Shown here piece after piece: positions 18,716-44,039 of a stretch of 64,000 nucleotides of DNA. A model generated the notes under the pieces. The model searched no databases. It had not been told where the DNA came from and was given only the letters and a program-made list of their open reading frames with translations. The position numbers and the translations under genes were made by a program. Source of the DNA: Impatiens glandulifera (taxonomy: Eukaryota > Streptophyta > Magnoliopsida > Ericales > Balsaminaceae); the NCBI RefSeq assembly GCF_907164915.1, contig NC_061862.1, forward strand, positions 9,163,505 through 9,227,504, written 5' to 3'. How positions within the stretch are numbered: position 1 is the first letter of the stretch; every line of letters begins with the position of its first letter.

Positions 18716-18749
18716 GTGAAATTGGACTAAATGACCCTACAAATAGGCC
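18716..18749 (+). repeat. MULE E1 left terminal inverted repeat
   Basis: It pairs with 27005-27038 with a few mismatches; the first base triplet is GTG against GGG at the other end. A subterminal inverted pair of TTCGCG-rich sequence (18844-18881 and 26891-26928) lies just inside both ends. Confidence 0.93.
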
Positions 18750-18793
18750 TATTTGCATCAGTGGTAATTTTTAATAATTTTTATCTGATCACC

Positions 18794-18796
18794 ACT

Positions 18797-18829
<33 letters not shown>

Positions 18830-18830
18830 A
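18794..18830. repeat. Poly(T) run near the E1 left end
   Basis: A long T homopolymer lies inside the element, between the TIR and the subterminal repeat. Its length is probably unstable. Confidence 0.9.
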
Positions 18831-18843
18831 CTAATTTACCATT

Positions 18844-18881
18844 TTCGCGTGACGCGAAGGGAGTTCGCGTTTCGCGAAGTG
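18844..18881 (+). repeat. E1 left subterminal TTCGCG repeat
   Basis: Tandem variants of TTCGCGTTTCGCGAAG, inverted relative to 26891-26928. They share the CGAAnCG core with the internal arrays. Confidence 0.85.
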
Positions 18882-18893
18882 AAAAAGTCTTGA

Positions 18894-18902
18894 TATATAT
18901 AC
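18894..18902 (+). promoter_or_regulatory. Probable TATA box of the E1 DUF1985-Ulp1 transcript
   Basis: TATATATAC lies in a block (TATATACTCAAATTTTTTCA, then pyrimidine-rich) that has a counterpart at the same place in MULE E2 (TATAAATACTCAAATATTTT, minus strand, about 43855-43871). Conservation between diverged elements supports a promoter. Candidate leader introns follow (acceptor at about 19240; donor CTCAG|GTTAG at 19575 to the acceptor just before the ATG at 19948). Confidence 0.55.
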
Positions 18903-19094
18903 TCAAATTTTTTCATTTCTCTCATTTTCTTTCTCTCTCATGCTTTCTTTCCTCCTGAGTTTGTCGCCGACGGCGAGCCCTCAAGCATAAATCGACAAGA
19001 TAATCAACCTAATCCCCGAATCTATGTTTATATAACAGATTTATGTTCTCATTTGTATTTCTTAATGAAACCCTAACCCTAAATATGTTCTTTT

Positions 19095-19195
19095 TGGTGA
19101 TATTGGTTAATATTGGTTCATATTGAATCATATTTGTTCATATTGGGTCATATTTGTTCATATATGTTCATATTTGTTCATATTGGTTTATTAGT
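19095..19195 (+). repeat. 12-bp tandem repeat (TTCATATTTG) in the E1 leader region
   Basis: About eight variants of GTTCATATTGG/TTCATATTTG occur in the untranslated leader region of the DUF1985-Ulp1 gene. Confidence 0.85.
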
Positions 19196-19258
19196 TTGTT
19201 CATCTTATTGATTGTTCTTTTGGCTGTGATGATATTTGCAGATGATATCGTTTCTGCT

Positions 19259-19349
19259 AGTTACTTAACGAAGCGTTAAGTACTTAACGAAGCGTTATGT
19301 ACTTAGCGAAGCGTTAAGTACTTAACGCTTCGTTAAGTACTTAACACTT
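19259..19349. repeat. E1 motif array 1 (TTAAGTACTTAACGAAGCG)
   Basis: About four to five copies of a 19-bp unit, in both orientations, lie in the leader region of the DUF1985-Ulp1 gene. AAGTACTT makes each junction palindromic. Confidence 0.95.
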
Positions 19350-19788
19350 CTGCACGCGCGCGTAGGAAGACGAAGAGGCGCGCGTATATGCACGCGCCAT
19401 ACCATATATTTTAAAAAATAAAACATTTGGACATTCATTTCTTCCATTTTCCCTCTTCTATCCTCTCGATTCCTCTCTCTCTACAACCGTCACACTGAAG
19501 AAGACATTGACAAGGCCGATCTGCCCGTCCCCCTCGTGTCCTCCCTCTCTATCATTGATTCCCCATAAATCTCAGGTTAGTTTTAGTTTGGTTGTTGCAT
19601 GTCTTTTTTTGGTTATGAGTTTTCATATTTGCATGTTTAGTTTTAGGGGTTTTGGCTGTTTCAGTTTATTGGTTTAATATTGGTTAGGTTTAGCGTTTAA
19701 TGTTTGTTTCTGGTTATTGATTATTGCATTATATTTGCATGTTTGTTTCTGGTTGTTGGTTATTGTTTCTGGTTTAGGGATTCGCGAA

Positions 19789-19893
19789 TTACTTAACGCT
19801 TCGTTAAGTACTTAACGCTTCGTTAAGTACTTAACGAAGCGTTAAGTACTTAACGAAGCGTTAAGTACTTAACGAAGCGTTAAGTACTTAACG
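19789..19893. repeat. E1 motif array 2, in the leader intron
   Basis: Five to six 19-bp units, two inverted (AACGCTTCGTT) then direct (AACGAAGCGTT), end about 55 bp before the ATG at 19948. Confidence 0.95.
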
Positions 19894-19947
19894 TTTGATG
19901 TGGTCTATGTATATGATCTTACATTTTTGTTGTTGTTCCTTTTGTAG

Positions 19948-22900
19948 ATGGCAGAAACCACCGTTCCTGATTTCCCTGGACGGATTTCTTGGAAAAGCGC
20001 CCTCTGCCTTAAGAAGATTGTTATGAAGTTTGAGGAAATGGATCTTGTGGAGAAGGTGTACAATACCCAATTCAGATATATAGTCTCTGCGCCAGTGTTG
20101 CAGTTCTCAGGAACTATTGTACATCACATGTTGCTTAGGAGGGTAACCTCAACCTCCAAGGAGATTACTTTCAATATCAATGGGCAAGAACTTGTGTTTG
20201 GTATGAAAGAGTACGCCTTGGTGACGGGCCTAAACTTCGGAAGGTTTCCTGAGGTGAACGAAGAAGAATGCCGAGGTTGTCCACCTCTGTTGGTAAAATA
20301 TTTTAAAGGGAAGACGAGTGTAGTAATGCAAGACTTGGAGACTGCTTTTTTGAAATGTAGAGATAAGGAAGATGCCTGGAAGATGGGGCTGGTATGCTTG
20401 ATTTGCCAGTACCTATTTTCATTTGACCCAAGGAGGGTGGTATTTGCCAAAATCCTCCACATGGTCGAAGACGAGGAAAGTTTCCTCCGATTTCCTTGGG
20501 GGAAGGTGACCTTCAGAGCCACCCTCAAGGGTTTGAACAAGAACATGAGACATCTCAGTCACAAATATTATAAGAAGAAGAAGGAAAAGAGTACTGATCC
20601 TTATGCTTCTTTTGTTTATAACATTTATGGGTTTGCACTGGCATTTCAAGTGTGGACATATGAGGTCATCAAAGGTTTTGTTCCTAAATTTGCTAGAAAG
20701 AATGAGCTTAATGATCCTCTACGCCCAAGGTTGTTAGTCTATCATTCCAACAGGAAGAACACCTTGATCGAGATAAAGACTGCCCTGGAGACAACGGATC
20801 TGACTGAGATGGAAGAGTCCTCCATGGAGAAGAGGTTATACAGTGGTGAGGACTTTGAACAAATAGATGAGTCAACTGATGAATTTTTTGAGGGATTTAC
20901 AGAAAGGAAGTTAGTGAAGGAGGATTATGATGATGAAGAGGAGGGAAGTGAACCTGAGGATGAACATGAAGAACCTACTTCCAAACCAAACACCCGGAAG
21001 AGAAAGGCTGCGCTTAATCTCAAAGAAGCCGTAAACCTGAAGAGGAAGCTTGCTTATGAATCTAGTCCTGCCAACATTCCTAGCCCCCCATCCGCTACTA
21101 GTCCTGGATTACCTCCAACATCTTCTGTTGAATGTAAATGTGAAGAGCTGAAAGAGGAGGTAAAAGCGCTGAAGGAGGAGCTCATCAAAGAGGTGAAGGA
21201 GGAGCTCAAAGAGATGAAAACAGCTTACGAAGAAACTCAAACAAATCACAAGGCTTATATGAAAAAGTTGGTTGTTAGTATGTGCGAACAGTTATTAGCC
21301 AAATCCAACCAAAGGATGGCCAGTTTAATTGTCAAATTAGATAGTATGGAGGAGGAGAGGAAGAAGAAGAAGAGCAAATTGGAAAAGAAGGGCAAGACTG
21401 AGGTAAGATAAAGATACTTATCGCTTCGTTAAGTACTTAACGCTTCGTTAAGTACTTAACGCTTCGTTAAGTACTTATCTTTTGTTGTTCTTAACTAACC
21501 ACACTGTTGTTTTATTTTTGCAGGAAGGGAATGTGGAGGAGATGAAGACGAATGACATGGAGATGAAGGATGGGAAGGTGGAGGAGGAGAGTGAGAAGGT
21601 GGAGGATATAACTGAAGTAAGTTTTACTTAGTGAAGTCAAATGTTGTTTCGGGAAGTAAACGCTGACCACACTGTTGTTTTCTTTTTGCAGGATGGGAAG
21701 GTGGAGGAGATGATGACGAATGAGATGGAGATGAAGGATGGGAAGGTGGAGGAGGAGAGTGTGAAGGTGGAGGATAAAACTGAGGTAAGTTTTGATTAGC
21801 GAAGTCATATGTTTCGGGAAGTAAACGTTGACCACACTGTTATTCTATTTTTGCAGGATAGGAAGGCGGAGGATAGTGTGGTGAAGGTGGACGAGACTGA
21901 GAATAATGTGAAGGTGGATGGTGGGGAGATTGAGACTGATGTGAAGGTGGATGGTGGTGAGACTGAGAATAATGTGAAGGTGGATGGTGGGGAGATTGAG
22001 ACTGATGTGAAGGTGGATGGTGGTGAGATTGAGAATGATGTAAAGGTGGATGGTGGGGAGATTGAGACTGATGTGAAGGTGGATGGTGGGGAGATGTTGC
22101 TCTCCGATATGATGCAAGAAATAATTGAGAAAAAGAAGGATAAGGTCAAGGTTGAGAAGGTTGAGAAGGTTGAGAAGAAAGCCAAGGTTGGGAAGGTTAA
22201 ACTCAAGGTTGGGAAGGTTGAGAAGAAAGTCAAGGTTGAGAAGGATGCCACGGATGGGAAGGATGAGAACGATGGGAAGGATGGGAAGGATTCGAGGGAT
22301 GGGAATGATGAGAACGATGATGATGATTTCCAATTATACAACACTCCACCTAAAGGAGTAGTTCCCAAAAAAAGAGTGAGGAAGCAGAAGAAAGATGAAG
22401 ACTACACCAACCCTTCTTTGTCAAAACAGCCAAAGACGAATGATCCATTAACTATCAATCCCCTTCAAAAATTTGATGATGAGTTGTTGGTTCAATTACA
22501 GAATTGGTTGAAAGATGAAGCTACCAATGATGAGACAAAGACTGTGTTTACTTGCGAAGCACGAAAGAAGTTGTTTGTTAGAGTTCTAACAAAGTCCACA
22601 TGGCTTAAAGATCCTGTAAGTGTTGCATTTCATATTAATTCTTTAACTTATGAATAAGGTTTTTGATATATGCTGCCTTTTCCCCCATTTTGTAGGAAAT
22701 CGACGCAGTCTGCCACTTGTTGCGCAAAAGGATTGAGCAATATCCCAAGACATATAAACATTGTAAAGTATCAATAGGGGATTGCTTATTAGCAGATATG
22801 ATGAGGCGAGAGTACCCGAACTATAAAAAAGATCCTGAAAAATTTCCAATATCAGACGTCTTTTCTCAGTACTTCTGGGGAGCGCCTCATAGACATATGC

Positions 22901-23355
22901 CAGAATGGCCACTAGTAGACGATATTTACGTGCCTTTGAACATTGGCAACAAGCATTGGGTACTGTGCGTCGTTCGTGTACAAGATAATCACATTGACGT
23001 TTATGACTGCGACTCGAGTATTTATAGGAATCTCGATCCATACATGAGACCTTTGTGTGAGATGTTTCCACGAATATATGCAATGGGAGCCAGTGATGCT
23101 GAGCTACAACGGTATCCTAATTTCAATTTCCAGAAACTGACATATAAAAGGTTGCCACACCCAGTCAAAAATGCAGTCGCCAAAAATGGGGAAGTCCCTA
23201 GAGCAGCAGAAAGTGGGGATTGTGGTGTATTTATGCTTATGCACATGGAATACTTGACTGCTGGTTTAGGTGTAGAGAAGGTGACTTCCAATGAAATGGA
23301 GTTTTTTCGACAAAAGATGGCGGTCCGGTTATTTCATCAAATTACAGAACCTTAG
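19948..23355 (+). CDS. DUF1985-Ulp1 (C48 peptidase) fusion protein of MULE E1; VANC-like candidate
   Basis: Five exons, all phase 0 (19948-21402, 21524-21616, 21692-21784, 21857-22615, 22696-23355), give 1,019 residues with no interruption. The ATG directly follows a leader-intron acceptor. Residues about 45-230 form a DUF1985 domain (ELVFGMKEYALVTGLNFGRF). An acidic tail, a nuclear-signal-like RKRKAALNLK stretch and a Lys/Glu coiled coil follow, then a charged region with six VKVDGGEIETD-type 11-residue repeats. The C-terminus is a Ulp1-like cysteine protease with His887 (NKHWVLC), Asp904 (VYDCD) and Cys976 (SGDCGVF), His-Asp spacing 17 as in Ulp1. The oxyanion Gln expected six residues before Cys is Ala. 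Exons 2 and 3 are a tandem duplication. DUF1985 proteins of Arabidopsis VANDAL elements (VANC) act as anti-silencing factors. A role in demodifying SUMO or ubiquitin-like proteins is possible but unproven. Confidence 0.9.
21415..21479. repeat. E1 motif array 3, in intron 1 of the DUF1985-Ulp1 gene
   Basis: Three copies of the inverted unit CGCTTCGTTAAGTACTTAA lie inside a 121-bp intron. The array occupies about half of the intron. Confidence 0.95.
21524..21784 (+). repeat. Tandemly duplicated exon plus intron (exons 2 and 3)
   Basis: Exons 21524-21616 and 21692-21784 are both 93 bp and nearly identical (shared MEMKDGKVEEES). The following introns share AAGTCA, TTTCGGGAAGTAAACG and GACCACACTGTT. 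Exon 4 starts with the same DxKxE pattern, so it may be a third, diverged unit. Confidence 0.9.
21900..22100 (+). repeat. 33-bp coding minisatellite (VKVDGGEIETD)
   Basis: Six in-frame copies, alternating IETD/TENN/IEND endings, lie in exon 4 of the DUF1985-Ulp1 gene. This is an acidic low-complexity linker before the protease domain. Confidence 0.92.
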
Positions 23356-23891
23356 TTTGTATTGTAATCGTTTATTGATTTTTGGATAGAACTTGACTTG
23401 TGCTTATGTATTCTGAACTTGTATTACTTTTTGGGTAGAACTTCAACTTAAGTTACATTTCATGTTAAAATATTTGTAGTTTTAATGTAGTCTGGTTGGT
23501 TGGTAGTCTGATATTTAAAAACCAAAGAATTGAACATATAAATCAATGTACCAAGTAACTAACTTAAACTCACTTAAACCAAGTTTTACTTAACGAAGCG
23601 CTTAACGAAGCGTTAAGTACTTAACGAAGCGTTAAGTACTTAACGAAGCGTTAAGTACTTAACGAAGCGTTAAGTACTCCTACAGTACACAGATAAACTA
23701 GATACAACATACAGATTACAACTTATCCGATTACAACTTATCCGATTACAACTTATCCGAGTTCAACTTATCCGAGTACAACTTATCCGAGTACAACTTA
23801 TCCAAAACATAATACAACTTATCCAAAACATAATACAAATTATCCAAAACATAATACAACTTATCCAAAACACTTATACAACTTATCCCAA
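23356..23891. repeat. E1 central space between convergent genes: motif array 4 and ACTTATCC repeats
   Basis: 23586-23678 holds about four to five 19-bp units of the E1 motif (AACGAAGCGTTAAGTACTT). 23704-23885 holds a different tandem series, first a 16-bp unit (TACAACTTATCCGAT), then a 22-bp unit (ACTTATCCAAAACATAATAC). No gene is present. Both transcripts probably terminate here. Confidence 0.9.
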
Positions 23892-26738
23892 TCAATCTAA
23901 AGGCTCATATTGTTGAGATGATGGCTCGTGCTGTTGAGAAGATGAGTCATGATGCTTAGATGATGATGCTTTTGCAGTAGATGGAGCAGGCATGACTGCT
24001 TTGCATGTGGCCCTATTATGTCCTAGTCCACCACATGAGGTGCATCGTCTCGGAGCCTTACGTACCTCACCTTGAGATGACCTACGCTTTGTTTGTGGAC
24101 GCCCTTTCTTAACCTTCACAGGTGGTTTTAGACATACGCGTTCCTTGATCATTTCTGGAATATCCCAATCGTCTTCATCACCAGCAGGGTAACATGTCTC
24201 CGCATATGCATTCATCCAAGATTCAGTTGTGTAATATCTGTAAGAATGGAAAATAAAACGATTAAACAATTGGTTAAATAGATTGAACATGTGAGCTGAA
24301 TAATACCTTGAACAAAAGTCATAACAAACCAAATTGCGGTGACGGGCAGCAGCCATTGCATGAGTACAAGGAAGACCAGAAACTTCAAATACCCTACAAG
24401 TGCAGTTCATGTCTTTCAAATTGACTTTAAAATGAGACTGATTGTCATGCACATAAAACTCGAATCGGTTAAGCGATGATACTGTATAGAATCTAGCCTT
24501 CTCGAATCCCTCACGTAACCACTTTTCATATGTTGGAGATAACACTTCTCGGTGGTTGGACGCTCTTTCTTTTCTCTCATTAAACCAACCTTGTATTGTC
24601 AATCTTAAATACTCGGCCATTGAGGAAATGGGGTACTTTCTGGCTTCCCTGCTCTGACTATTAAAACTCTCAGCATAATTGCTTGTTAGTTGATTGTATC
24701 GCTTACCGGGGAAAAATGCTCTACTCCATCTTTGAAATCCAATTTCTTCCAAATAGGCAGCAATCCTATTATCTTTAACCCTTATCTTGTCAAAAAAACG
24801 ATTGAATTCGTGGACGGTGTACGCACGAGAAGCCATATCAAACTCCATATGACAATTATCAGTTTTGAATTTCGCGTTGATATTCATCTTTATGTGATAT
24901 GTGCACGCACCGTGGTATGCTTCTGGAAAAACAGCACATAAGGCATTGGCGATGCTTGGGTGTCTATCGGATACGAAGACGAGATCATCAACTAATCCAA
25001 TTGCTTCTCTCAATTTTTGCATAAAATAAGTCCAAGAGTTATTATTCTCTGAATCAACAACTCCGAATGCGACAGGATATAATTGTTCATTAGCATCTAA
25101 TGCAATAGCCACCAATAGTTGACCTCCCACCTTGTGCTTAAGAAAACTGGCATCAACACACAATACGGGACGACAAAATGCTTTGAAACCCCTAATAGAG
25201 AGGCCTAGGGACATGAACATATACTTGAAGTGCCCGACCTCGTCTGTTTGGATGTCTGTTATGGTACCAGGATTATGCTTCTCCAACATGTATAAGTATG
25301 AGGGTAATTTTTCATATGAATCCTCAACCGTTCCTCGCACCGCCACTAATGCCATTTCCCTAGCCCTCCAAGCCTTATTATAAGTCAAATTTACCCCATA
25401 AGTTGCCTGCATGTCTTCAATTATTTTCTTAGGCAAGTGATTATGGTGATGGTCCATATACTTACTCTTCACGCACTGCCCAATAACCCATGCTGGTGTT
25501 TGCATTTTTTTCTCTGGCCTAGATAGAACTGAGCATGAGTGTTGTTGGTCGAATTTCCGGATCTCAAACATCTCAGATAATTTACCTTTCACGGCACGCA
25601 ATCTCCACTTGCATTTCTCATCCAAACATTTCACATACCAAAGATGTTTTCTTGACTTCTCCACCTTGAATTCAAAATGATTAGCCATCGCATATTTATA
25701 TAGCATCAGTTGTAGTTCTTTTTTATTTTCAAACAAGGCACCGACTTCCAATACAGTTTCAGTAGTTAACGCCAACGCAAATGAGGGGTCTGTCGGTGAT
25801 ATGTCTGTCGGTGATATGTCTGTCGGTGATATGTCTGTCGGTGATATGTCTGTCGGTGATATGTCTGTCGATGGTGTACCAAATGATGATCTTCTTGCAC
25901 TACATGGTATACCCAATGATGATCTTCTTGCACTAGTAGGTGTACCCGTTGATGCTCTTCTCGCACTATGTGGTGTAGGTATCGATGCATGCAAGTCCTG
26001 AGTAAGTGGGATGTGAGGCAAAGAGTTATCTCCGGCTTCATTACTTTCAACAAAGACCTCCGAGGGTAAAGCTTCTGGTACAATTTTCTGAGTAAATTGT
26101 GGGAGAATACTTTCTTGAGTTGGGTAGGTAAGTAGTGATATCTTTTCTTTAGTAAATTGTGACTTCTCTACTACAGACACAAACAATGGTGACACAGTTC
26201 TACCCAAAATCAAGCGTGATAAATATATGTTCAGATCCTCATCATCTTCAATAAAAACGGGTTTAGGATTTGTGATATTCGGAATATCATACTTCACTTG
26301 CAGCACTAAATCATAGGTAGATTTCTGCACTTGAAGTCTTTCATGGAGTTTATCAATTAATTCAGCATAACGAGTACTTTGGGGTAAATCCAATGTTTTG
26401 ATTGAAGAGGCATCAAAAAACCATATTCCATTAGCATCAACTTTCCACTCTCCATTATAGAAAACGAAAACTTCGGCTGCAAGAAAAATTGGAAACGGGA
26501 TAATTAATACTGTGAAATGGAAACCCTTCGCGAAACGGGAAGTACTTAGCGAAACGGGAAGTACTTAGCGAAACGGGAAGTACTTAGCGAAACGGGAAGT
26601 ACTTCGCGAAACGGGAAGTATCATCAGATGAAACCCTAAACAACGCAGTGATTCGAAAATGCATAAATGAACAACAATAAACTTGAAATACATAAACTTA
26701 CCAATTGTTACAGTGCTTGTGCTCGTCGTGGAGCTCAT
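23892..26738 (-). CDS. MuDR/MULE-type transposase of E1
   Basis: The exons (26738-26702, 26476-24307, 24237-23892) give 850 residues. The short first exon (MSSTTSTSTVTI) is supported by the same structure in E2. Domains in order: an N-terminal PB1-like region (about 15-110); a Ser/Pro-rich linker with five PTDIS repeats; a MuDR DNA-binding zinc domain (about 258-328, CxxxxCKW ... QQHSC); and a MULE DDE core with Asp about 454 (VLCVDASF), Asp about 516 (FVSDRHPS) and Glu about 615 (NYAESFNS). A SWIM finger (CTCRVFEVSGLPCTHA) and a CCHC knuckle (RRCTSCGGLGHNRATCK) follow. It catalyses cut-and-paste transposition at the TIRs. The last intron (24238-24306) is 69 bp and contains no in-frame stop, so its retention would add 23 residues without breaking the frame. 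Confidence 0.93.
25790..25867 (-). repeat. 15-bp coding minisatellite (PTDIS) in the E1 transposase
   Basis: Five tandem copies of a 15-bp unit are present. E2 has only one or two related copies at the same place, so the tract expanded after the elements split. Confidence 0.93.
26525..26620. repeat. E1 motif array 5, in transposase intron 1
   Basis: Five copies of ACTTAGCGAAACGGGAAGT (19 bp). This is a different variant from the E1 arrays near the DUF1985 gene and is closer to the E2 variants. The homologous E2 intron also carries an array (34950-35099). Confidence 0.95.
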
Positions 26739-26850
26739 TGAGTGCCGCCGTTGAACTCCGTCGCCGGCGAGATTAGAGAGAAGGAGGAGAAAAGCGGAAG
26801 GGAAGAGAGAGAAGAAGAAGAAAAGAAATGAAAAAAAGATGGCCGGATTT

Positions 26851-26862
26851 TATTATATAATA
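26851..26862 (-). promoter_or_regulatory. Probable TATA region of the E1 transposase gene
   Basis: On the minus strand TTATATAATA lies about 115 bp upstream of the ATG and is followed by a pyrimidine-rich leader. In E2 the same leader (TTTTTTTCATTTCTTTTCTT) follows an AATATAA at about 34712. Confidence 0.5.
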
Positions 26863-26890
26863 AGGGTATTCTGGACTTTTCACAGCGTCT

Positions 26891-26928
26891 CACTTCGCGA
26901 AACGCGAAGTCCCTTCGCGTTACGCGAA
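26891..26928 (-). repeat. E1 right subterminal TTCGCG repeat
   Basis: Inverted partner of 18844-18881, just inside the right TIR. Confidence 0.85.
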
Positions 26929-27004
26929 AAGGGTAATTTCGTCCAAAAAAAATTAAGTGGTCACCAGATCAATTTCAATTATCTGGTGACCACGGAGGCA
27001 ATTT

Positions 27005-27038
27005 CCCTTATTTGTAGGGTCATTTCGTCCAATTTCCC
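27005..27038 (-). repeat. MULE E1 right terminal inverted repeat
   Basis: It reads (reversed) GGGAAATTGGACGAAATGAC and is followed by the second TATTTATC at 27039-27046. Confidence 0.93.
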
Positions 27039-27046
27039 TATTTATC

Positions 27047-28770
27047 CTACGTAGTACCTGTGTTCTTGAAAAGATTTTAATAAAATAATTATAATTTTAA
27101 TCGGAAAATAAATATAAATATAGATATTTTATATTATATTATAATTTTAAAATACATCTTTTAAATTTAAAATTAATAATTAAGATCACAAATTTTAAAT
27201 TTTTTTATTTTTTATTATCCATCTAATTCAATTTTTCATTCCTTCGTCCCTTTAATTTGAATTTACATATTCTATCACATCTTATCTTTCAAAAAAATCA
27301 CCATTAACACAATCATTCCTTCAATCCATCAAATTCGCATCCACATATACCACCATCATTATCATTTTACGAATGAAGACGACAAATTAGCAAAAACTTA
27401 GTATAATTGTGCGCATAAATTTTATTTGAGGTTAAGTGTTGCTAATAAAAGAAAAGGCAAAGCAATATGCATTAAAGGAGAGTGTTTTAAGATACAACAT
27501 GGAATTAGGCATCCCAACCTAATGTGGAGAGGTCTACCAACCATTTCAACCACTCAATTTCAAGATGCAGTTAAGGATCAAAGAAAAAAAATTGGGTTAA
27601 AAAAACATGAAATTAATGACAACGGAAATTGAACTAAGAAAAAACATTTATAACATTATGTCATGTGACACGGGCTACAATAATAACCAATTTTAAAACA
27701 TTACATTCTAAACTTAAAAAGTTATTTGCCTCAAAGTGACTCGACATTATCTTTGAACATTTTGCTCCATTCGCAACTCGTCATATTATGACCACCTTCT
27801 ACCATCACATTGTGCATTTGCTTCATCTGACTCATCATTATCGACCAACACCTACCATCACTTTGAACATTATGCACTAACAAACTCATCATTATTGGCC
27901 ACCTTTTACCCTCACTTTGGGTATTTTGCTCAAACTGATTCGTCATTATTGATCACAATATATCCTCATTTTATCATTTGATTCATTTCGAACCACTATT
28001 CCCTTAATCTCTCAAATTCACACCCACGTATACTACAATCATTGTCATTTTAATATTTATAATACCCTTCTAAAATCTCACCATTTAATTTCCTTAATCC
28101 CTCACATTCAAGGTGAAAATCATAATATAAATTGGAGAATGTGAAAACCCTAAAAGAAGTTGGATACGATTCATATTGAAACTATTTTTTATTAAAATTA
28201 ATATCACAACGGTGAGATGTTGTGTTAACATCTTCAAGGGAATAAACCATTATCCGAAAGAAAAAAAATAAGAAAATTAAAACTCGTGAAATATCAATTT
28301 AAAGATAAAATAAAATACCTTTTTTAAAAGCAATGTATGATTTACAATATGTTTGCCACCTCAAGTTGATGGTAAAATAATCAAAATTCAAAGTCAATGA
28401 TAAGAAGGTGATTTATCTAATATAATCGATAACATGAAAGTTAAAAGAAGAACTCACAATCCATAACAAATCGTAGATGGATAGCGCCAAGTACATACAA
28501 AATATACATCGAACAGAAAATGATAAAAGGAGGCGTGTACTGATCATTAGGGTTACATCATGTTAAATACAATACTACTATTTGGCCTTGACCTGCACAA
28601 CAATTTTTAGGGCTTTGTGTTTTCGCACATGAAATGAAATTAAATAAGATAATAATCTGATTTACTAATTATATATTGATTAGTATATTTTCATAATTTA
28701 TTATATATATCATATTACTTAATCATTTATTAATAAAGTGTCACTTAATCTTATTTATTTGAATTTTATT
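27047..28770. repeat. Inverted-duplication arm, part 2 (partner about 59935-61223)
   Basis: This stretch matches 59935-61223 in reverse complement with few differences, except that 28246-28655 is absent from the partner. The reading frames at 27426-27632 and 27731-27946 recur in the partner but match no family I recognise. They may be debris of an older transposon. Confidence 0.85.
28246..28655. other. About 410-bp indel between the duplicated arms, bordered by AATAA
   Basis: AATAA at 28241-28245 and 28651-28655 borders the extra segment, while the partner arm has one AATAA at this point. It is either an insertion with a 5-bp TSD or a microhomology deletion in the partner. I see no LTR or TIR signature. 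Confidence 0.5.
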
Positions 28771-33437: not shown

Positions 33438-33444
33438 GTTGATG

Positions 33445-33779: not shown

Positions 33780-33980
33780 ATTTTTGGCGACGTTTGAGCT
33801 ACTTTTACCAACGCTTATAAAAGCGTTGTTAACGTCTCTACCTTTTGGCAACGCTTAAATTAGTAGTACCGACGCTTAAATAAGGGTTGTTAAAACTTAC
33901 GCAAGAATAAGTGTCGGTAATATTTTTGGCGACGCTTTTAAGGGTTGACAGAGATCTTTTTAAGCGTCGCCGTAAGTCTT
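33780..33980. repeat. CACTA subterminal repeats (GCGACGCTT)
   Basis: Several direct and inverted variants of GGCGACGCTTTTAAGGGTTG and AACGCTT lie next to the right end. These are typical of subterminal transposase-binding clusters in CACTA elements. Confidence 0.8.
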
Positions 33981-33996
33981 TTTTGTTATAGTGATT

Positions 33997-34521
33997 GTGA
34001 GTGAAGAATTGATCAGTTTGTTGAGTCAAGTGACTAGTGATATTCATTAATATATATATATAATTATAAATATAAATTGATAATATTATGTTATAATTTG
34101 TTAAAAAAATTTTTTTTTACGACCAATTTCAAAAAACTAAACAAATTAGATAAAAAATAATAATTATTATATTGAGAAGTTAATAGTATTTATTATATAA
34201 ATGAGAGTAATAAAATATTATTCAATTAGTAAAATATTATTCAATTTCTACTTATTTATTTGAAAAGTTAAAAACATTTTTCTAATCTATAATTTATATA
34301 TTAGTTTAGTGAGAATTAGATATTATTTATTTTGAGAGAATGTGAAAATGTTAACTTCATTGAATCAATATAGGTTGAAGTTTATTTTGTGTTAAAAGAA
34401 TAGTAAATTAAGACTGATAAACAAATTAAATTTTAAGAAATCATGATCAGCTAATTCAAGCAAAATCTAAAATAAAACAAAATTAAAGGGAAAAAAATAG
34501 AAATAAGACCCAAAATCACCT
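33997..34521. repeat. Inverted-duplication arm, part 3 (partner about 59415-59922)
   Basis: AT-rich sequence between the CACTA element and MULE E2. It matches the partner arm in reverse complement and contains no gene. Confidence 0.85.
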
Positions 34522-34529
34522 AGATCAAG
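34522..34529. repeat. Target-site duplication of MULE E2, left copy (AGATCAAG)
   Basis: AGATCAAG is repeated at 44032-44039. The empty site in reverse complement at about 59415-59425 reads AGATCATG once, one substitution away. Confidence 0.94.
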
Positions 34530-34579
34530 GGGAAATTTGATCAAATAACCTCAAAGATGAGGTTATTTGATCTGATGGT
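34530..34579 (+). repeat. MULE E2 left terminal inverted repeat
   Basis: It pairs with 43982-44031, about 75-80% matched by eye. A motif-core subterminal pair (34640-34676 and 43885-43922) lies inside. Confidence 0.93.
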
Positions 34580-34639
34580 AAGTTGATAATTTTATTGCGC
34601 TCGTGGTGATTTTATTTTTTTGGACGATTTTGCCCTTGT

Positions 34640-34676
34640 CGCGAAACGCTAAGTGACTTAGCGTTTCGCGAAGTGA
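34640..34676 (+). repeat. E2 left subterminal repeat (GCGAAACGCTAAGTGACTTA)
   Basis: Palindromic: GCGAAACGCTAAGT followed by ACTTAGCGTTTCGC. Inverted partner at 43885-43922. Confidence 0.88.
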
Positions 34677-34852
34677 CGATATGTGAAATGTCCAGATTAC
34701 CCTTACTATTTAATATAACCTCCGTACTTTTTTTTCATTTCTTTTCTTCTCCTTCTCTCTCTTCCCGCTCTTCTCCTCCTTCTCTCTAAACTCCGGCGGC
34801 GGCGGCGAACTCGTCGGAGATCTCGGCGGCGACGGTTTGTTCGAAATCCACT

Positions 34853-37715
34853 ATGAGCTCGACGACGTGCACGAGCACTGTTCCAATAGGTACGTCTATT
34901 TTAAGCATGTTTTATTGATGTTCGGTTTCTGAGATTGATTAAGGTTTACTTCCCGTTTCGCTAAGTGCCTAGCGATTCGCGAAGGCCTTCCCGTTTCGCT
35001 AAGTGCCTTACGATTCGCGAAGGCCTTCCCGTTTCGCCAAGTGCCTAACGATTCGCGAAGGCCTTCCCATTTCGCTAAGTTCCTAGAGATTCGCGAAGTA
35101 TTAATTATCTGTCTCTAAATCAAATCATGTTTTTTTATTGCAGCTGAAGTTTTCGTTTTCTATAGTGGAGAGTGGAAACTTGATGCTGATGGAATACTGT
35201 ATTTTGATGCATCTTCAATCAAAACATTTGATCTACCCCAAAGTACTCGTTATGCTGAATTACTTGATATACTCTACGATAGACTTAATCTCCAGATATC
35301 AACATACGATTTAGTGCTCCAAGTGAAGTATGATATTCCGAATATCAGAAATCTAAAACCTGTTTTTATTGATAATGATGGGGATTTGAACACATATCTA
35401 TCACGCTTGATTTTGGTTCGAACAGTGTCACCATTGCGTGTATCTGTAGTGAAGAAGTCAGCATTTACTAAAGAAAAGATACCACTACTTACATACCCAA
35501 CTCAAGAAAGTATACTACCACCACAACTTACTCAGAAATTTGTTCCACCTGTTGTACCCTTGGAATTCTTTGTTGAAAGTCAAAATGAAGTCGGAGAAAC
35601 TTCTTTGTCCACATCCCACTTACTCAGGACTTGCATGTTAATAGTGGTGAAAAAGAATCAATACCTATACAACCAAGTGCAAGAAGATCATCATTGGGTA
35701 CACCAACTAGTGCAAGAAAGGCATCAAATGGTACACCAACAAGTGCAAGAAGATCATCAATGGGTACACCATCTAGTGCAAGACAATCTTCAATGGGTAC
35801 ACCATCGACAGACCCGACAGACCCATCACCGCCAGACCCCACATTTGCGATGGCATTAACTAGTGAAACCGTATTGGAAGTCGGTTCGTTGTTTGAAAAT
35901 AAAAAAGAACTTCAACTTGCTCTATATAAATATGCGATGACCAATCATTTTGAATTCAAAGTGGAGAAGTCAAGAAAAAATCTTTGGGAACTCAAATGTT
36001 TGGATGAGACATGCAAGTGGAGCTTGCGGGCTGTGAAAGGTAAGTTTTCTGAGATGTTTGAGATCCGGACATTTGAGCAACAACACTCATGCTCAGTTTT
36101 GTCGAGGCCCAAGAAAAAAATGCAAACACCAGCATGGGTTATTGGGCAGTGCGTGAAGAGCAAGTACATGGACTATCATCATAACCACTTGCCTAAGAAA
36201 ATAATTGAAGACATGCAGACAACTTATGGGATATTTTTGACTTATAATAAGGCATGGATGGCAAGGGAAAATGCTTTAATAGCTGTGCGAGGAACGGTAG
36301 AGGATTCCTATGGAATACTGCCATCATACCTTTACATGTTGGACAAGTGTAATCCTGGTACCATAACCGACATACAGACAGACGAGCTCGGCCACTTCAA
36401 GTATATGTTCATGTCCCTAGGCCTCTCAATTAGGGGTTTCAAATCCTTTTGCCGTCCTGTATTATGTGTTGATGCTAGTTTTCTTAAGCACAAGGTGGGT
36501 GGTCAATTATTGGTGGCTATTGCATTGGATGCGAATGAGCAACTATATCCTGTCGCATTCGGCGTTGTTGATTCAGAGAATAATAACTCCTGGACTTATT
36601 TCATGCAAAAACTGAGAGACGCAATTGGATTAGTTGATGATCTCGTCTTCGTATCCGACAGACACCCAAGCATCGCTAATGCCTTGTGTGCTGTTTTCCC
36701 AAAAGCAGACCACGGTGCGTGCACATATCACATAAAGACGAATATTGTGGCCAAATTCAAAAGTGATAAGTGTCATGCGGAGTTTGATTCGGCTTCAAGG
36801 GCGTACACTGTCCACGAATTTAATCGGTGGTTTGACAAGATCAAGGTTAAAGATCACAGGATTGCTGCCTATTTGGAAGAAATTGGGTTCCAAAGATGGA
36901 GTAGAGCATTTTTTCCCGCTAAACGATACAATCAACTCACAAGCAATTATGCTGAGAGTTTTAATAGTCAGAGCAGGGAAGCCAGAAAGTATCCCATTTC
37001 AGAAATGGCTGAGTATTTAAGATTCACAATACAACATTGGTTTAACGATAGAAGAGAAAGAGCGTCTAATCACGAAGAAGTTTTATCTCCAAATTATGAG
37101 AAGGTGTTACGTGAGGGATTCGAGAAGTCCAGATTCTATACAGTCCAATCGCTTAACCGATTCGAGTTTTATGTGCATGACAATCAGTCCCATTTCAAAG
37201 TCAATTTGAAAGACATGAACTGCACTTGTAGAGTATTCGAAGTTTCGGGTCTTCCTTGTACGCATGCAATGGCTGCTGCCCATAGTCGGAATTTGGTTTC
37301 TTATGACTTCTGTTCAAGGTATTAATATTTAGCTCACGTGTTCATTCTGTTTAACCAATTAATAATTCGTTATATTTTCCCTGCACACAGGTATTACACA
37401 ACTGAGTGTTGGATAAATTCATATGCCGAGACATGTTATCCTCCCAGTGATGAAGAAAATTGGGATGTTCCCGAACATATCAAGCAACGTTCGTGTCTTA
37501 AACCAAATGTGAAGGTTAAGAAAGGCAGGCCACAAACAAAGCGTAGGTCATCCCAGGGTGAGGTCCGTAAGGTCCCGAGACGATGCAGCTCATGTGCTGG
37601 GCTAGGACATAATAGGGCAACATGTAAAGCAGTGATGCCTGCACCATCTACTGCAAGAGCTTCATCATCTAAGCAGCATGAGTCATCATCTCAACAATAT
37701 GAACCTTTAGCTTGA
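34853..37715 (+). pseudogene. MuDR/MULE-type transposase of E2, frameshifted
   Basis: The exon structure equals E1: 34853-34889 (MSSTTCTSTVPI), 35144-37318, 37391-37715. The last intron (72 bp) here contains an in-frame stop, which supports it being a true intron. At about 35607-35610 the reading TTTGTCCACATCCC lacks one base relative to E1 TTTGCCTCACATCCC, which moves the frame. The N-terminal 100-residue PB1-like region is thus separated from the rest. The main part (from about 35631) keeps the MuDR zinc domain, the DDE core (VLCVDASF, FVSDRHPS, NYAESFNS), SWIM (CTCRVFEVSGLPCTHA) and CCHC knuckle. The core is almost identical to E1, much closer than the DUF1985 proteins are. Confidence 0.92.
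34950..35099. repeat. E2 motif array 1, in transposase intron 1
   Basis: About three to four units of roughly 46 bp alternate TTCCCGTTTCGCTAAGTGCC and TAGCGATTCGCGAAGG, i.e. the motif in both orientations. Confidence 0.93.
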
Positions 37716-38202
37716 TAGATACTATGTTGTAATATATGTTGTTAATTGAACTATGGTACTGGTAAGATACTATGCGTAAGATACTATGTTGTTAATTCAG
37801 GTTTAAAGTTTATGTTGTATGTTCTAGTAGTAGTATATGAGTAGGGAAACAATGAGTAATAACTTAGCGAAACGAAGAGTACTTAGCGAAACGGGAGGTA
37901 CTTCGCGAATCGGGAGGTACTTCGCGAATCGGGAGGCACTTAGCGAATCGAAGAGTACTAACTTAGCGAAACGAAGGCTACTAACTTAGCGAAACGAAGA
38001 GTACTTGGCGAAACGAAGAGTCAATTCGAGGTTATCTTTTTTGTACGTTGAAGGGTCAATTCAAGGGTTACACTTGTTTTTTACGTTGAAGGTTTTCTAC
38101 AATTCAAGTTCAAAATAATTTATCATCCAACTTCCAAAATATTCATCAAGGTTTACAATACATCAAAATAAGTTATCCAATTTACACAAAATAATTTTTA
38201 CA
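37716..38202. repeat. E2 central space between convergent genes: motif array 2
   Basis: 37861-38023 carries about eight units such as ACTTAGCGAAACGAAGAGT and ACTTCGCGAATCGGGAGGT. The rest is AT-rich 3' flank of both genes. Confidence 0.93.
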
Positions 38203-38927
38203 CTAAGGTTCCATAATCTGATGGAATAACCTGACCGCCATCTTCTGCCTAAAAAACCCCATGTTTTCTGAGGTCACATTGTGGACGGCTTGATTAGCGG
38301 TCAAGTGTTCCATATACATTAGCGTGAAGACCCCACAGTCCCCGCTCTCTGTTGCCCGTGGGACTTCTCCAACCTTAGCTGCAGCGGTTTTCACTTTGGG
38401 GTGTGGTAACCGTTTGTAAGTCATTGGTTGGATGGGGCCTTCGAAGTTGAATTTAGGATACCTTACCCTCTCACCAGGAGTGATTGTCTTTGCGAATATA
38501 TGTGGAATCATGTCGTAGAAGGGTTTCAAATAAGGATCCAGATTCTTATAAAGATAGGCATCACAGTCGTACACGTCAATGCGGTACTTTTGAAGACGTG
38601 TTACACACAAAATCCAGTGTTTCTGGTTAATGTTCACAGGCATGTAGACATCGTCAATTGTTGAACATTCTGGCATATATCTATGTGGTGATGCCATGTA
38701 ATAGTCTTTGAATTCGGCGACTGAATAGTTAGCAGGATCCTTAATAAAAGTCCTGTGCTCTCGCCTGATTCTGTCCGCCAATAAGAAATCCCCAATTGCC
38801 ACATGTGAATTTTTATATGTCTTGGGATAGTAGGAAATCCTTTTCCGCAAAAGATGGCAGAATGCATCGATTTCCTGCACAATGGGAGCATACAACATAC
38901 ATTCAGTATATATCAAACAACATTGAC

Positions 38928-39085
38928 TAAGTACTTAGCGAAACGAAGAGTACTTGGCGAAACGAGAGGTACTTAGCGAATCGACAAGTACTTGGCGAAA
39001 CGAGATGTACTTAGCGAAACGAAGAGTACTTGGCGAAACGAGTTCTACTTAGTGAATCGATAAGTACTTGGCGAAACGATGAGTA
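38928..39085. repeat. E2 motif array 3, in the last intron of the DUF1985-Ulp1 gene
   Basis: About eight units alternate ACTTAGCGAAACGAAGAGT, ACTTGGCGAAACGAGAGGT and ACTTAGCGAATCGACAAGT. The equivalent E1 intron is 80 bp and has no array. Confidence 0.93.
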
Positions 39086-39907
39086 TTAATGAATAATGAA
39101 TTGAATTGCACGACTTACAGTGTCTTCAAGCCATGTCAACCTTGTTAAAACTCTAACAAACACATCCTTCTTTTCTTGGCAAGTATGTACATCCGTTGTC
39201 AAATTATCGGTTTCTGGATCATCCAACCACGCCTTTACTTTATCCAGCAGCTCATCTTCAAATTTTTGAAGGTGATTCACTTTCATTGGATCCTTTGTCT
39301 TGGGCATTTTTGACAAGGAAGGGTTGGTGTACGAGTCATCTTTTTTCGGCTTCCTCACTCTCCTCCCATAATTTCCTTTAGGAGGAGTATTGTATAACTG
39401 GAAATCATCATCGTCATCATTGTCATCTCCTCCCATAATTTCCTCATTTGTCTGTACCTTCACATCCACACTCTTCTCATCCTTCACCTTCACTTTCAAA
39501 TCCTTCACCTTCAGTTTCAGATCAACCTCCACATCATCCACCTTAGCCACACCATCCAGCTTCTCACCGTCCTCCACTTTAGCCTCATCCTCCATCTTTA
39601 CGTCCTCCACCTTCGCATCGTTCTCTTTTCGTTCATCCTCCACCTTCTCATCGTCCTCCACCTTGGCCTCATCCATCTTCTCATCATCATCCACCTTCTC
39701 ATCATTCTCCACCTTAGCCTCATCCATCTTCTCATCATCATCCACCTTCTCATCGTTCTCCACCTTCTGTTCGTCCTCCACCTTCTCATTGTCCTCCTTT
39801 ACATCGTCCTTCTTCCCATCATTCCCATCATTCACCTTCTCATCATCCCCCACAGTATCCTGCATCGCTATCATCTCCTACAAAATAGGCAAAATTCTGG
39901 TCAGTAC

Positions 39908-40163
39908 AAACTTAGCGAATCGACAAGTACTTTGCGAAACGACAAGTACTAACTTAGCGAATCGACAAGTACTTGGAGAAACGATAAGTACTAACTTAGC
40001 GAAACGACAAGTACTTGGAGAAACGACAAGTACTAACTTAGCGAAACGACAAGTACTAACTTAGCGAATCGACAAGTACTTGGCGAAACGATAAGTACTA
40101 ACTTAGCGAAACGACAAGTACTTGGCGAAACGACAAGTATTAACTTAGCGAAACGACAAGTAC
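39908..40163. repeat. E2 motif array 4, in intron 2
   Basis: About a dozen units, mainly ACTTAGCGAAACGACAAGT and ACTTGGCGAAACGATAAGT, separated by AC/AA spacers. It is the largest array in the window. A single copy (ACTTAGCGAAATGAAATGT) lies in intron 1 at about 40275. Confidence 0.94.
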
Positions 40164-41878
40164 GCAGAATACCTCTTTCTTCTCCTCCTCCTGTTCAACC
40201 TTGCTCTTCTCAACTTCGACATCCTTCTTAGAATCCTTAACCTGCAAAATAGGTACTAGTCAGATCAGATATGTACTTAGCGAAATGAAATGTAAAGTGC
40301 AAAATTCAATATCTCCATACCTCAGTAGTCTTTTCCTCTTCGACCTTCACAGCCTTCTTAGAATCCTTCTTCTTACTCTTCTTCTTCTTTATATTCTCCT
40401 CCATATCATCTAATCTGGTTAATAATATGGACATCATTTTGTTGGATTTATCTAACAACTGTTTGGACATATTAAAAACCATCTTCTTGAACGACTCAAG
40501 GTGAGTTTCTTGAGTTTGTTGGATTGTGATTTTTAGCTCTTTGATGAGCTCTGTTTTCAGCTTTTTCATCTCCTCTTTCATCTCTATTTTCAGCTCCTCC
40601 TTCATCTCATTAAATTCACATCCAACAGAAGGTGTTGGAGCCCGAGGAGAAGGTGTGTCAGCCCGAGGACTTGAGGTCGCGGAGGGGGGAGTAAGAATGC
40701 GGGCCGGAATCGATTCATAAGCAAACTTCTTCTTCAAAATGGCTGCTTCTTTAAGAGTAGCATCAGCCTTTCTCTTCCTCGTGGCAGGTTTGGGGGGATT
40801 CAGAGTAACTTCTTCATGTTCACTTTCTTCATCTTCATCTTCATCAAAATCATCTTTTATTACCTTCCCACCAGTAAATCCCTCAAAAAAATCATCAGTT
40901 GTCTCGTCGATTTGCTCAAATACATCACCACTGTATAACCTCTTCTCCATGGAGGACTCTTCCATCTCAGTCACATCCGTGGTCTCTAGGGCAGTCTTTA
41001 CCTCGATCGATGTGTTTTTCCTGTTGGAATGATAGAGTAACAACCTTGGGCGTAGAGGGTCATTAATCTGATTCCTTCTGGCGAATTTAGGGATAAAGTT
41101 TTCGATGACCTCATACGTCCACACTTGAAGTGCCAATGCGAACCCATAGATGTTATATGCAAAAGGAGCATAAGGATCTTCAGCCTTCTCCTTCTTGTCA
41201 AAATATGAGGTACTGAGATGTTTCATGTTCTTGTTTAAACCCTTGAGGGTGGCTCTAAAGATGACCTTCCCCCATGGATATTGGAGGAAAGTGTCCTTGT
41301 CTTCCACCATGTTGAGTATTTTTGGAAATATAACTCTTTTTGGGTCAAATGTGAATAGGTACTGGCAAATCAGGCATACCAGCCACATCTTGAATGCATC
41401 TTCCTTGTCTTTGCATTTGAAAAAAGCTTTCTCGAAGTCGCACATTTTCACACTCATGCTCCCTTTAAAGTATTTCACCGAGAGAGGTGGACAACAACGC
41501 AATTTTTCTTGGTCCAACTCAAGATAAATGCCGAAACATAGGCCGATGACCAACACATACTCCTTCATACCAAATACAAGCTTGTGCCCATTCACCATGA
41601 AAGTTATCTCCTTGGAGTTTGAGCTTAACCTCCTCATCAACATATGATGTACAATAGTTCCTGAGAACTGCAAGAGGGGGGCTGTGAATAATGATCTGAA
41701 CTAGGTATTGTACACACTCTCCAGAAGATCCATTTCCTCGAACTTATTAACAATCTTCTTCAGGATGAGGGCACTTTTCCACGAAATCCGATCGGGAAAC
41801 TCAGTAACAGTTGTTTCTTCCATCTACAAAAGGAAATAACATCATCAAAAATGTAAGAACAAACACATACACCGTAAG

Positions 41879-42228
41879 AACTTAGCGAATCGGGAGGTAC
41901 CTCTCGATTCGCTAAGTACCTCCCGATTCGCTAAGTACTTAGCGAATCAGGAGGTACTTAGCGAATCGCTAGGTACTTAGCGAATCGAGAGGTACCTAGC
42001 GAAACCGTTAACTGAACATAAGACAGCATTAACCATACATAACTAATCAGAAACAAACAATAAAACTTAACATGCAAAAACCCTAAACAAAAAATCTGAA
42101 ACAAACACCTAAACTTAACATGCAAAGACCAAAATCCATAAACAAAAACCAGAAAATGATCGGCCACCACTAGGTATTTAGCGAATCGCTAGGTACTTAC
42201 CGAATCGGGAGGTACCTAGCGAAACCCT
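41879..42228. repeat. E2 motif array 5, upstream of the DUF1985 ATG
   Basis: Units of ACTTAGCGAATCGGGAGGT type in both orientations at 41879-42007 and 42172-42228, in the leader/intron region. Between them is a short duplicated leader sequence (CTTAACATGCAAA..CC, twice). Confidence 0.93.
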
Positions 42229-42489
42229 AATGGCAAAAAAATATACTGAACAGAAACCCTAATGGCAAAAAAATATACTGAACAGAAACACTTAACATTA
42301 CACTTAACATGCAAAAACCGAAACCCATGAACAAAAAAGCAGAAAATGATAGGCGGGGAGAAGAATGAACAAACCTTAATGACGAACGAGAAGAAAGAAG
42401 AAATGATCGGCCTTGACAAGATTCAGTGAAGAGAAAATGGGTTAGAGAGAGACAGTCGGGGCGGTTGAAATGAAATGTTCTGAAATTTT

Positions 42490-42500
42490 TGAATATATAA
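42490..42500 (-). promoter_or_regulatory. Candidate TATA box upstream of the E2 DUF1985 gene
   Basis: On the minus strand TTATATATTC is followed within about 30-60 bp by a pyrimidine-rich leader (GACTGTCTCTCTCTAACCC). E1 has the comparable CATATATTTT at about 19400 before CTCTCTCTACAACC. It may be an alternative to the TIR-proximal promoter. Confidence 0.42.
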
Positions 42501-42538
42501 GGTCTAGCGCGTGTGCGTACGCGCGTCTCTTCAACTTC

Positions 42539-42690
42539 CGTAGCGAGTCGGGAGGTACTTAGCGAATCGGGAGGCACTTAGCGAATCGGGAGGTACTTAG
42601 CGAATCGGGAGGCCCTTAGCGAATCGGGAGGCACTTAGCGAATCGGGAGGTACTTAGCGAATCGGGAGGTACTTAGCGAATCGCGAGGTC
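42539..42690. repeat. E2 motif array 6, promoter-proximal
   Basis: About eight units ACTTAGCGAATCGGGAGGT, the most homogeneous E2 array, immediately upstream of the candidate TATA at 42490. Confidence 0.95.
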
Positions 42691-42692
42691 AA

Positions 42693-42795
42693 CGAGCTCC
42701 AGCTAAGAGAAGATGGTTTGAATACGTTTTCGCTACTATATTTGTTTAATAACGAAATCGAATTCAAACCATTCTCCTAGCTGGAGCTCGTAGTA
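42693..42795. repeat. Short foldback in E2
   Basis: Arms ACGAGCTCCAGCTAAGAGAA and its reverse complement (GGAGAATGG side, ending GGAGCTCGTA) pair over about 40 bp around a short loop. Confidence 0.85.
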
Positions 42796-42834
42796 CTTAG
42801 CGAATCGTCAAGTACAAAATTTTTTATTGGTTTC

Positions 42835-43205
42835 ATAGGTAATCCATCTCGTTTGACAAGGTATCAACAACAAAGTCATGGTTTTGAAAAAAACATGTGT
42901 TAACAAAACAAACCTTATAATTTTACATGGAAACATTTAGATTCTTCAGAAAAAGTCTTTAAGAAGCTATCATTGAACTCCAGATAAGAGAAAATTGTTT
43001 GAAATTTATTTCTTTAGCTTAACGACTAACGAAATCAAAGTCAGCCAATCTTTGCTTATCTGGAGGTCAATGATAGATTCTTCAAAGGCATTTTCTGAAG
43101 AATCTAAATGTTTCCAATGTAAAATTAGAAGGTTTGTTTTGTTAACACATGTTCTCTTCATAACCATGAAGTGATGTAGATACCTTGTCAAATGAAGTTC
43201 ATGAT
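42835..43205. repeat. Long foldback (arms about 165-170 bp) in E2
   Basis: The left arm (about 42845-43005) and right arm (about 43035-43200) are imperfect reverse complements. Shared blocks include TTTGACAAGGTAT, ACATGTGTTAACAAAACAAA, AAACATTTAGATTCTTCAGA and CTCCAGATAAG. The loop is about 40 bp. A transcript would form a long hairpin. Confidence 0.9.
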
Positions 43206-43230
43206 TAACTATAAATAACAAAAAATCTTG

Positions 43231-43349
43231 ACACTTAGCGAATCGCGAGGTACTACTTAGCGAAACGGTAAGTCCGTAGCGAAACGGTAAGTCCGTAGCG
43301 AAACGGTAAGTCCGTAGCGAAACGGTAAGTCCGTAGCGAAACGGTAAGC
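43231..43349. repeat. E2 motif array 7, right side
   Basis: One TTAGCGAATCGCGAGGT unit, then five copies of CCGTAGCGAAACGGTAAGT (19 bp), a third sequence class of the same motif. Confidence 0.95.
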
Positions 43350-43863
43350 AGATCTGAAACGGAAACACATACGCTCTTATCAGACAGAGATTTTCTGCAA
43401 ATATGAACGAATAACAAATAATAACCTAACGAAATGCTCAAACATGAACCAATATGAACTATATAACAAATAAGAATCAACAAAACGGAGAAAATGATGG
43501 ACATAAACGAAATATGAAAAGGTTTTTGAAATGAAGAAAATGTAAACAAGAACATAACTGTTTATCACATCTGAAATGAAGATCTACCTCGACGACCTTC
43601 AAATAGTTAGAATCGGAGACCTGCACATAAACCCTAGAATCAGAAACCTGCATGCAAAATAGATTTAGGGTTAGAAATCAGCAATAGATAAACATAAATG
43701 AATTAGTTAGGTTAGAAGAGCTTGTAAATCTGATCTGTATAGATTTGTATGGAGTGAAGGAAACTCCGTCGCCGCCGGCCGCCGTCGTCGCCGGCCACTG
43801 TGAAGTGAAGGAGAGAATTGGAGAAGAGAGAGAAAGAAATTTAAGGAAATTAAAATATTTGAG

Positions 43864-43871
43864 TATTTATA
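43864..43871 (-). promoter_or_regulatory. Probable TIR-proximal TATA box of the E2 DUF1985-Ulp1 transcript
   Basis: TATAAATA on the minus strand is followed by CTCAAATATTTTAATTTCC and TTTCTCTCTCTTC. The same layout occurs in E1 at 18894. Downstream leader introns are suggested by TGCATGCAG and TGTGCAG acceptors at about 43648 and 43622. Confidence 0.55.
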
Positions 43872-43884
43872 CAAACCCCTAATC

Positions 43885-43922
43885 CACTTAGCAAAACGCT
43901 AAGTCACTTAGCGTTTCGCGAC
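43885..43922 (-). repeat. E2 right subterminal repeat
   Basis: Inverted partner of 34640-34676 (CACTTAGCGTTTCGCGAC side). Confidence 0.87.
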
Positions 43923-43981
43923 AAGGGCAGAATTGTATAAAAAAAATAGAGCACCACGAGCGCAAAAAAAAATAACAAATA

Positions 43982-44031
43982 ACCAACAGATCAAATAACC
44001 CAATCTTTAAGGTCATTTCGTCAAATTTCCC
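43982..44031 (-). repeat. MULE E2 right terminal inverted repeat
   Basis: Reads (reversed) GGGAAATTTGACGAAATGAC and is followed by the second AGATCAAG at 44032-44039. Confidence 0.94.
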
Positions 44032-44039
44032 AGATCAAG

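Follow-up and report, generated by a model that had tools for sequence, protein, structure and literature searches.

A candidate VANC-type anti-silencing gene and its putative target arrays in Mutator-like elements of Impatiens glandulifera

Two Mutator-like elements and their genes

The window analysed here, a stretch of 64,000 nucleotides of Impatiens glandulifera DNA (contig NC_061862.1, positions 9,163,505 to 9,227,504; chromosome C1 hereafter), contains two Mutator-like elements (MULEs), E1 (18716-27038) and E2 (34530-44031), which may carry a transposon anti-silencing system related to the VANC systems of Arabidopsis. Both elements have inverted ends and 8-bp target-site duplications. 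E1 is bordered by the direct repeat TATTTATC (18708-18715 and 27039-27046) and E2 by AGATCAAG (34522-34529 and 44032-44039). The arms of the terminal inverted repeats (TIRs) are about 63 nt long and 90% alike in E1 (18820-18882 and 26890-26952), with homology extending to the element ends, and 86 nt long and 87% alike in E2. The DNA separating E1 from E2 belongs to neither element. Each of them has two genes on opposite strands, one for a MURA-type transposase and one composed of a DUF1985 exon, a middle part that is acidic and rich in repeats, and a Ulp1 exon. The view of a sequence-only reading of the window, that two MULEs here combine DUF1985 with Ulp1, is borne out by Pfam, which detected DUF1985, Peptidase_C48 and MULE/SWIM domains in E1 and in E2.

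In E1, the plus strand carries the VANC21-like DUF1985 exon (19948-21411; Pfam match at residues 67-194), the middle coding part (21800-22636, with approximate exon limits) and the Ulp1 (Peptidase_C48) exon (22696-23355; Pfam match and SENP1 alignment). The MURA open frame is on the minus strand (23892-26564), with a likely 3' splice site before its AEVFVF start and a presumed N-terminal limit. In E2, the MURA region is on the plus strand (35119-37715), and the Ulp1 exon (38203-38877, Pfam), the middle part (39086-39877) and the DUF1985 exon (40387-41823, Pfam) are on the minus strand. E2 has coding lesions: its DUF1985 exon is interrupted by a stop (41701-41703), and its MURA frame is split in two near 35.6-35.86 kb; a further break, at 37326, may represent an intron. 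The main frames of E1 are open, and presumed splicing would join its DUF1985 exon to Ulp1. Predicted I. glandulifera proteins close to the E1 protein reach 97-98% identity over part of it, and both domains occur in a single predicted protein in P0011, P0026, P0030 and P0031. Nine predicted Impatiens proteins (P0001-P0007, P0013 and P0021) splice 20118 to 20920 and omit the DUF1985 core; the skipped stretch (20119-20919) is in frame, 801 bp long and bounded by GT-AG, and may correspond to an alternative Ulp1-only isoform or to a gene-prediction artefact. In addition, P0024, a predicted I. glandulifera aspartic proteinase, holds about 110 residues resembling the start of the DUF1985 exon, a composition suggestive of an element located within or next to a host gene model.

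In a profile search of the PDB, an E1-led DUF1985 profile matched the crystallised VANC21 (E 1.9e-21), which was also the only clear fold match of this part of the protein. As the earlier reading had proposed, the comparison supports the DUF1985 part of the E1/E2 protein as a VANC homologue. The Ulp1 domain is under purifying selection, and the His, Asp and Cys of E1/E2-type sequences align with those of SENP1, where these catalytic residues are accompanied by an oxyanion Gln. Synonymous divergence (dS) between E1 and E2 is 1.38 in the Ulp1 exon (22696-23355 and 38203-38877), far above the 0.37-0.53 of its neighbours, as if the module had been exchanged between lineages.

Dyad arrays in the noncoding DNA of E1 and E2

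With up to one mismatch, the motif TTARCGAANCG has 83 matches in the window, 82 of them in E1 or E2 and one elsewhere (1635), against a chance expectation of 4.94 ± 2.04 (highest value 10 in 100 shuffles). The dense arrays of about 19-bp period described by the sequence-only reading are thus real, with a unit larger than the one first seen. Alignment of 81 units gives a longer symmetric word, the dyad ACTTnnCGnnnCGnnAAGT, whose length equals one 19-bp period; with up to one mismatch it is matched 66 times against 0.06 by chance, every time in E1 or E2. The array step is 19 bp, also 23 bp, with a few steps of 12, 15 and 22 bp.

All five E1 arrays located earlier (19259-19349, 19789-19893, 21415-21479, 23586-23678 and 26525-26620) are present. 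They correspond to leader array 1 (19262-19345, four CGAAGCG units), leader array 2 (19790-19893, five units in both orientations), an intron array (21415-21477, three units), an intergenic array (23590-23678, five units) and a MURA-promoter array (26525-26620, five units). In E2, arrays of eight units each occupy the MURA promoter (34949-35098), the intergenic DNA (37862-38021), the intron preceding the Ulp1 exon (38930-39085) and the leader (array C, 42541-42689). Another E2 intron holds 12 units in 19/23-bp steps (39903-40163), leader arrays A and B together hold nine (41880-42223; A 41880-42003, B 42170-42223) and the subterminal array D holds six (43235-43348). Seventeen E1 units are spelled CGAAGCG and are mostly exact palindromes about the middle base triplet, which agrees with the proposal that each element has its own code. 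However, all five units of the E1 MURA-promoter array read CGAAACG, a spelling common in E2, where units mix CGAAACG and CGAATCG. Since E1 carries two spellings, that proposal is only partly right. A second E1-type copy, L046, mixes 11 CGAAGCG with 6 CGAAACG cores, so that the two spellings are a tendency and not a clean split. E1 also holds a second noncoding tandem array (23703-23888) made of another word, TACAACTTATCC, in units of 15 and 21 bp, and a similar array is present in L046 (464-595).

Among the 83 hits of the core CGAANCG in the window, 79 are in noncoding DNA of the elements, one lies in the roughly 46 kb outside them and three are lone sites within MURA coding sequence (24461, 35882 and 37158). 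Avoidance of coding DNA is strong (binomial p ~1e-29, with coding sequence as 62% of the elements, a share that rests on approximate exon limits). It argues against the arrays being functionless minisatellites spread by slippage, an idea that would fit the differing copy numbers at corresponding places of related elements. The same dyad recurs in five separate E1 arrays and eight in E2, in both orientations and also as lone units, and its CG..CG core is kept: the 324 CpG bases of the 81 units show three CpG-type transitions and four other changes, a count biased low because the units were chosen by similarity. We regard a minisatellite origin without function as barely credible. The observed/expected CpG ratio is 2.07 in the arrays, a value partly built in because the word holds two CpG, compared with 0.55-0.58 in coding DNA, 0.91-1.04 in the rest of the elements' noncoding DNA and 0.75 beyond the elements.

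All four TIRs bear one dyad copy each, exact in two cases and with one mismatch in the other two (E1, 18862-18880 on the plus strand, one mismatch, and 26892-26910; E2, 34656-34674 on the plus strand, and 43886-43904, one mismatch). These TIR-internal copies raise the question of the origin of the array word, which may have arisen from the TIR or been copied into it. They are also what would be expected if the arrays were bound by the MURA transposase, or enhanced transposition, and were not sites of the DUF1985 protein; the retention of TIRs and arrays in elements with no detected genes, described below, would fit as well. On the other hand, the DUF1985 gene has arrays in its introns and leaders, and E1 and E2 differ little in MURA (87% identity) compared with DUF1985 (66%), with the differing spelling in the non-MURA arrays. 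Array words also follow DUF1985 clades, as shown in the next section, though MURA may co-vary with them. Overall, we consider it unlikely that the arrays are transposase sites or transposition enhancers.

Family clustering and clade-specific words across the genome

The sequence-only reading predicted that the motif would cluster only in MULEs with a matching DUF1985 protein. TTARCGAANCG has 10,297 occurrences in the 654-Mb assembly and its reversed pattern 934, an 11-fold excess. Loci were then fetched on C1: eight motif clusters ahead of the window, six single-hit places and three arbitrary stretches, the clusters being taken among the matches listed, at the start of this one chromosome. All eight clusters sit in elements with E1/E2-type TIRs. 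Three are elements with MURA, DUF1985, middle-part and Ulp1 matches, and a fourth (L024) has MURA with a single visible TIR. The remaining four show no match to E1/E2 proteins at 1e-5 and are flanked by two E1/E2-type TIRs 2.1-3.3 kb apart. Such TIRs accompany three of the six single-hit places and are lacking at the other three, and the arbitrary stretches contain 0-2 cores, without any TTARCGAANCG or TIR. Exact copies of the E1 dyad CTTAACGNNNCGTTAAG are found at 1,451 places in the genome, its reversed control at none. Among the matches listed, the dyad forms three multi-hit clusters after the window on C1, two with an E1-type DUF1985 match and the third (L047) an internally deleted E1-type element with a partial DUF1985 at 94%. 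E1-type DUF1985 is abundant: at least 95% identity was found in 83 of 124 scored matches, 73 of these 83 having no internal stop.

A genome search for DUF1985 gave 1391 candidates and 150 scored hits, all above the Pfam cut-off. Lineages other than E1/E2 have different arrays, located in leaders, in introns or in DNA downstream. L042 and L044 share the word CTGTCG-n4-CGACAG with a 21-bp period (20 exact dyads in L042 and one in L044, a shorter piece), L041 and L045 have CACGCCC-rich units of 20 bp, and L038-L040 have TTCACGTG, seen downstream of the gene. Each word is largely confined to its own loci. CGAANCG counts are 25 in E1, 57 in E2, 37 in L018, 38 in L025, 52 in L027 and 17 in L046, and 0-2 in the remaining loci except L043 (11). 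CACGCCC occurs 109 times in L041 and 85 times in L045 (0-2 in other loci), CTGTCG 58 times in L042 and 20 times in L044 (0-7 in others), and TTCACGTG 5, 14 and 10 times in L038, L039 and L040 (0-1 in others). Within coding matches, words number 0-3 per locus, with five in L041. All words found hold CpG, one or two per unit.

A DUF1985 tree was built for 14 loci, 13 of which have an assigned word. The four words, one with two spellings, are distributed over five clades. The data thus support an array word that follows the DUF1985 clade. This speaks against sites for a host transcription or silencing factor that drives expression or silencing of the elements, as a single factor cannot explain words that differ by DUF1985 clade within one genome. 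Placement of arrays in leaders and promoters would suit a host factor, as would CACGTG, the G-box core, contained in the word of one lineage; we nonetheless judge this explanation very improbable. For TTCACGTG, the first 100 places listed, all on C1, were compared with the 37 DUF1985 hits listed for that chromosome: 23 of 31 clusters are within 9 kb of a DUF1985 hit, 22 of them 2.9-4.9 kb downstream, eight clusters lie farther from the hits listed, and 14 of the 37 hits have no TTCACGTG cluster. L043 has the best Pfam DUF1985 score in the genome (4640-5632; 65% like P0014). We saw no array belonging to this DUF1985 gene; the one at 753-865 is near a MURA-like repeat and far from the DUF1985 match.

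Relation to VANC systems and a possible mechanism

VANC21 of Arabidopsis binds YAGTATTAY, and the targets of VANC6 contain AGTTGTCC or AGTTGTAC; in both cases the motif occurs in tandem repeats of noncoding DNA (PMC5735166). VANC induces methylation loss at such repeats, and RNA-directed DNA methylation re-silences the same regions (PMC10398659). As in VANC21/VANDAL21 (Hi) and VANC6/VANDAL6, E1/E2 encode a VANC21-homologous DUF1985 protein next to a MURA-type transposase, and their own elements carry a tandem noncoding motif that is enriched in the family, rare elsewhere and different among related proteins. The placement of arrays in introns and in intergenic and terminal noncoding DNA is also VANC21-like. 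In Arabidopsis VANDALs the VANC side evolves faster than the transposase (PMC5735166), and likewise DUF1985 has diverged more than MURA between E1 and E2. In contrast, the published VANC21 and VANC6 motifs contain no CpG, whereas every Impatiens word does. VANDAL TIRs are degenerate (PMC10398659), unlike those of E1/E2 (87-90% alike), which thus fall outside VANDAL in this respect. The Ulp1 domain is a further difference from VANC21 and VANC6.

The joining of Ulp1 to DUF1985 had been put forward as a departure from VANC. This does not hold: a 2026 review describes a Ulp1 domain in some VANC genes (KIU), with a capture old in eudicots, so the fusion is not new (PMC13317346). KIU VANCs recognise motifs in their own elements, which the review calls non-TIR MULEs (PMC13317346). 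In Kaonashi/KIU and in E1/E2 alike, a single predicted MULE gene holds both DUF1985 and Ulp1; unlike the former, E1/E2 keep clear TIRs and have words that contain CpG. A plant mobile domain profile, as in MAIN/MAIL1, matches weakly over DUF1985 in 9 of 17 proteins, and the genes that depend on MAIN/MAIL1 have a promoter motif in common (PMC7156037). However, the profile match is below the Pfam cut-off in E1/E2, and MAIN/MAIL1 are host genes acting in silencing. According to Sasaki et al. 2022 (EMBO J), DUF1985, DUF287 and Ulp1 are said to have been gained and lost, helical periodicity reportedly has a role, and at least ten systems reportedly exist in Arabidopsis. A limited literature search gave no account of a VANC-type anti-silencing system in Impatiens. 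What is descriptively new is the presence of several words in one genome, all of them CpG-bearing.

In our view, the E1/E2 family very probably carries a VANC-type anti-silencing gene whose DUF1985 part reads the dyad arrays and removes methylation. This explanation is based on the VANC21 homology, the array anatomy, the family clustering, the array retention in copies with no detectable genes and the clade-specific words; from sequence we infer binding, methylation loss and a Ulp1 role in the E1/E2 system. The DUF1985 part would most likely bind the 19-bp dyad, perhaps as a dimer, at target arrays spread over the leaders, introns, centre and subterminal DNA of the element. It would then strip DNA methylation from elements of its own family and also from coding-poor relatives that keep TIRs and arrays. 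Once the protein is on the element, the Ulp1 domain might, more speculatively, target a silencing factor that carries SUMO. The lineages would stay independent of one another through divergence of both word and reader. Several observations weigh against this explanation. The AlphaFold model is of low confidence, with a mean pLDDT of 56.2. Ala occupies the oxyanion Gln position in all 18 sequences showing the Cys motif, all of E1/E2 type, which makes Ulp1 activity uncertain. The dyad is present in all four TIRs, where the transposase is expected to act, the clades that the words track may be shared by MURA, and the DUF1985 locus L043 has no assigned word.

Because the words hold CpG, the methylation mark thought to be removed lies inside the protein's own landing site, and methylation may act directly on binding. 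That CpG is in the words by design, with methylated CpG either directly gating the binding or serving as its target, is a tentative idea that we find rather doubtful. If it is true, each transposon family would have an on/off switch that reinforces itself, with the length of the arrays setting the threshold; in any case, CpG-bearing sites raise the question of whether methylation gates binding. More generally, sequence-specific transposon anti-silencing would be extended to the Impatiens genome, where related elements with different words make a good new case of an arms-race system that is already known. The genome offers several natural candidate protein-word pairs, one of which exists in dozens of almost identical copies. 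Together with the solved VANC21-DNA structures (9lnj and 9lnk), such pairs could allow the DUF1985 recognition code to be worked out, and several independent words could serve targeted epigenome editing.

Elsewhere in the window, a 45-bp tandem repeat with inverted CCGAAAGA and TCTTTCGG words, unrelated to E1/E2, occupies positions 62681-63100.

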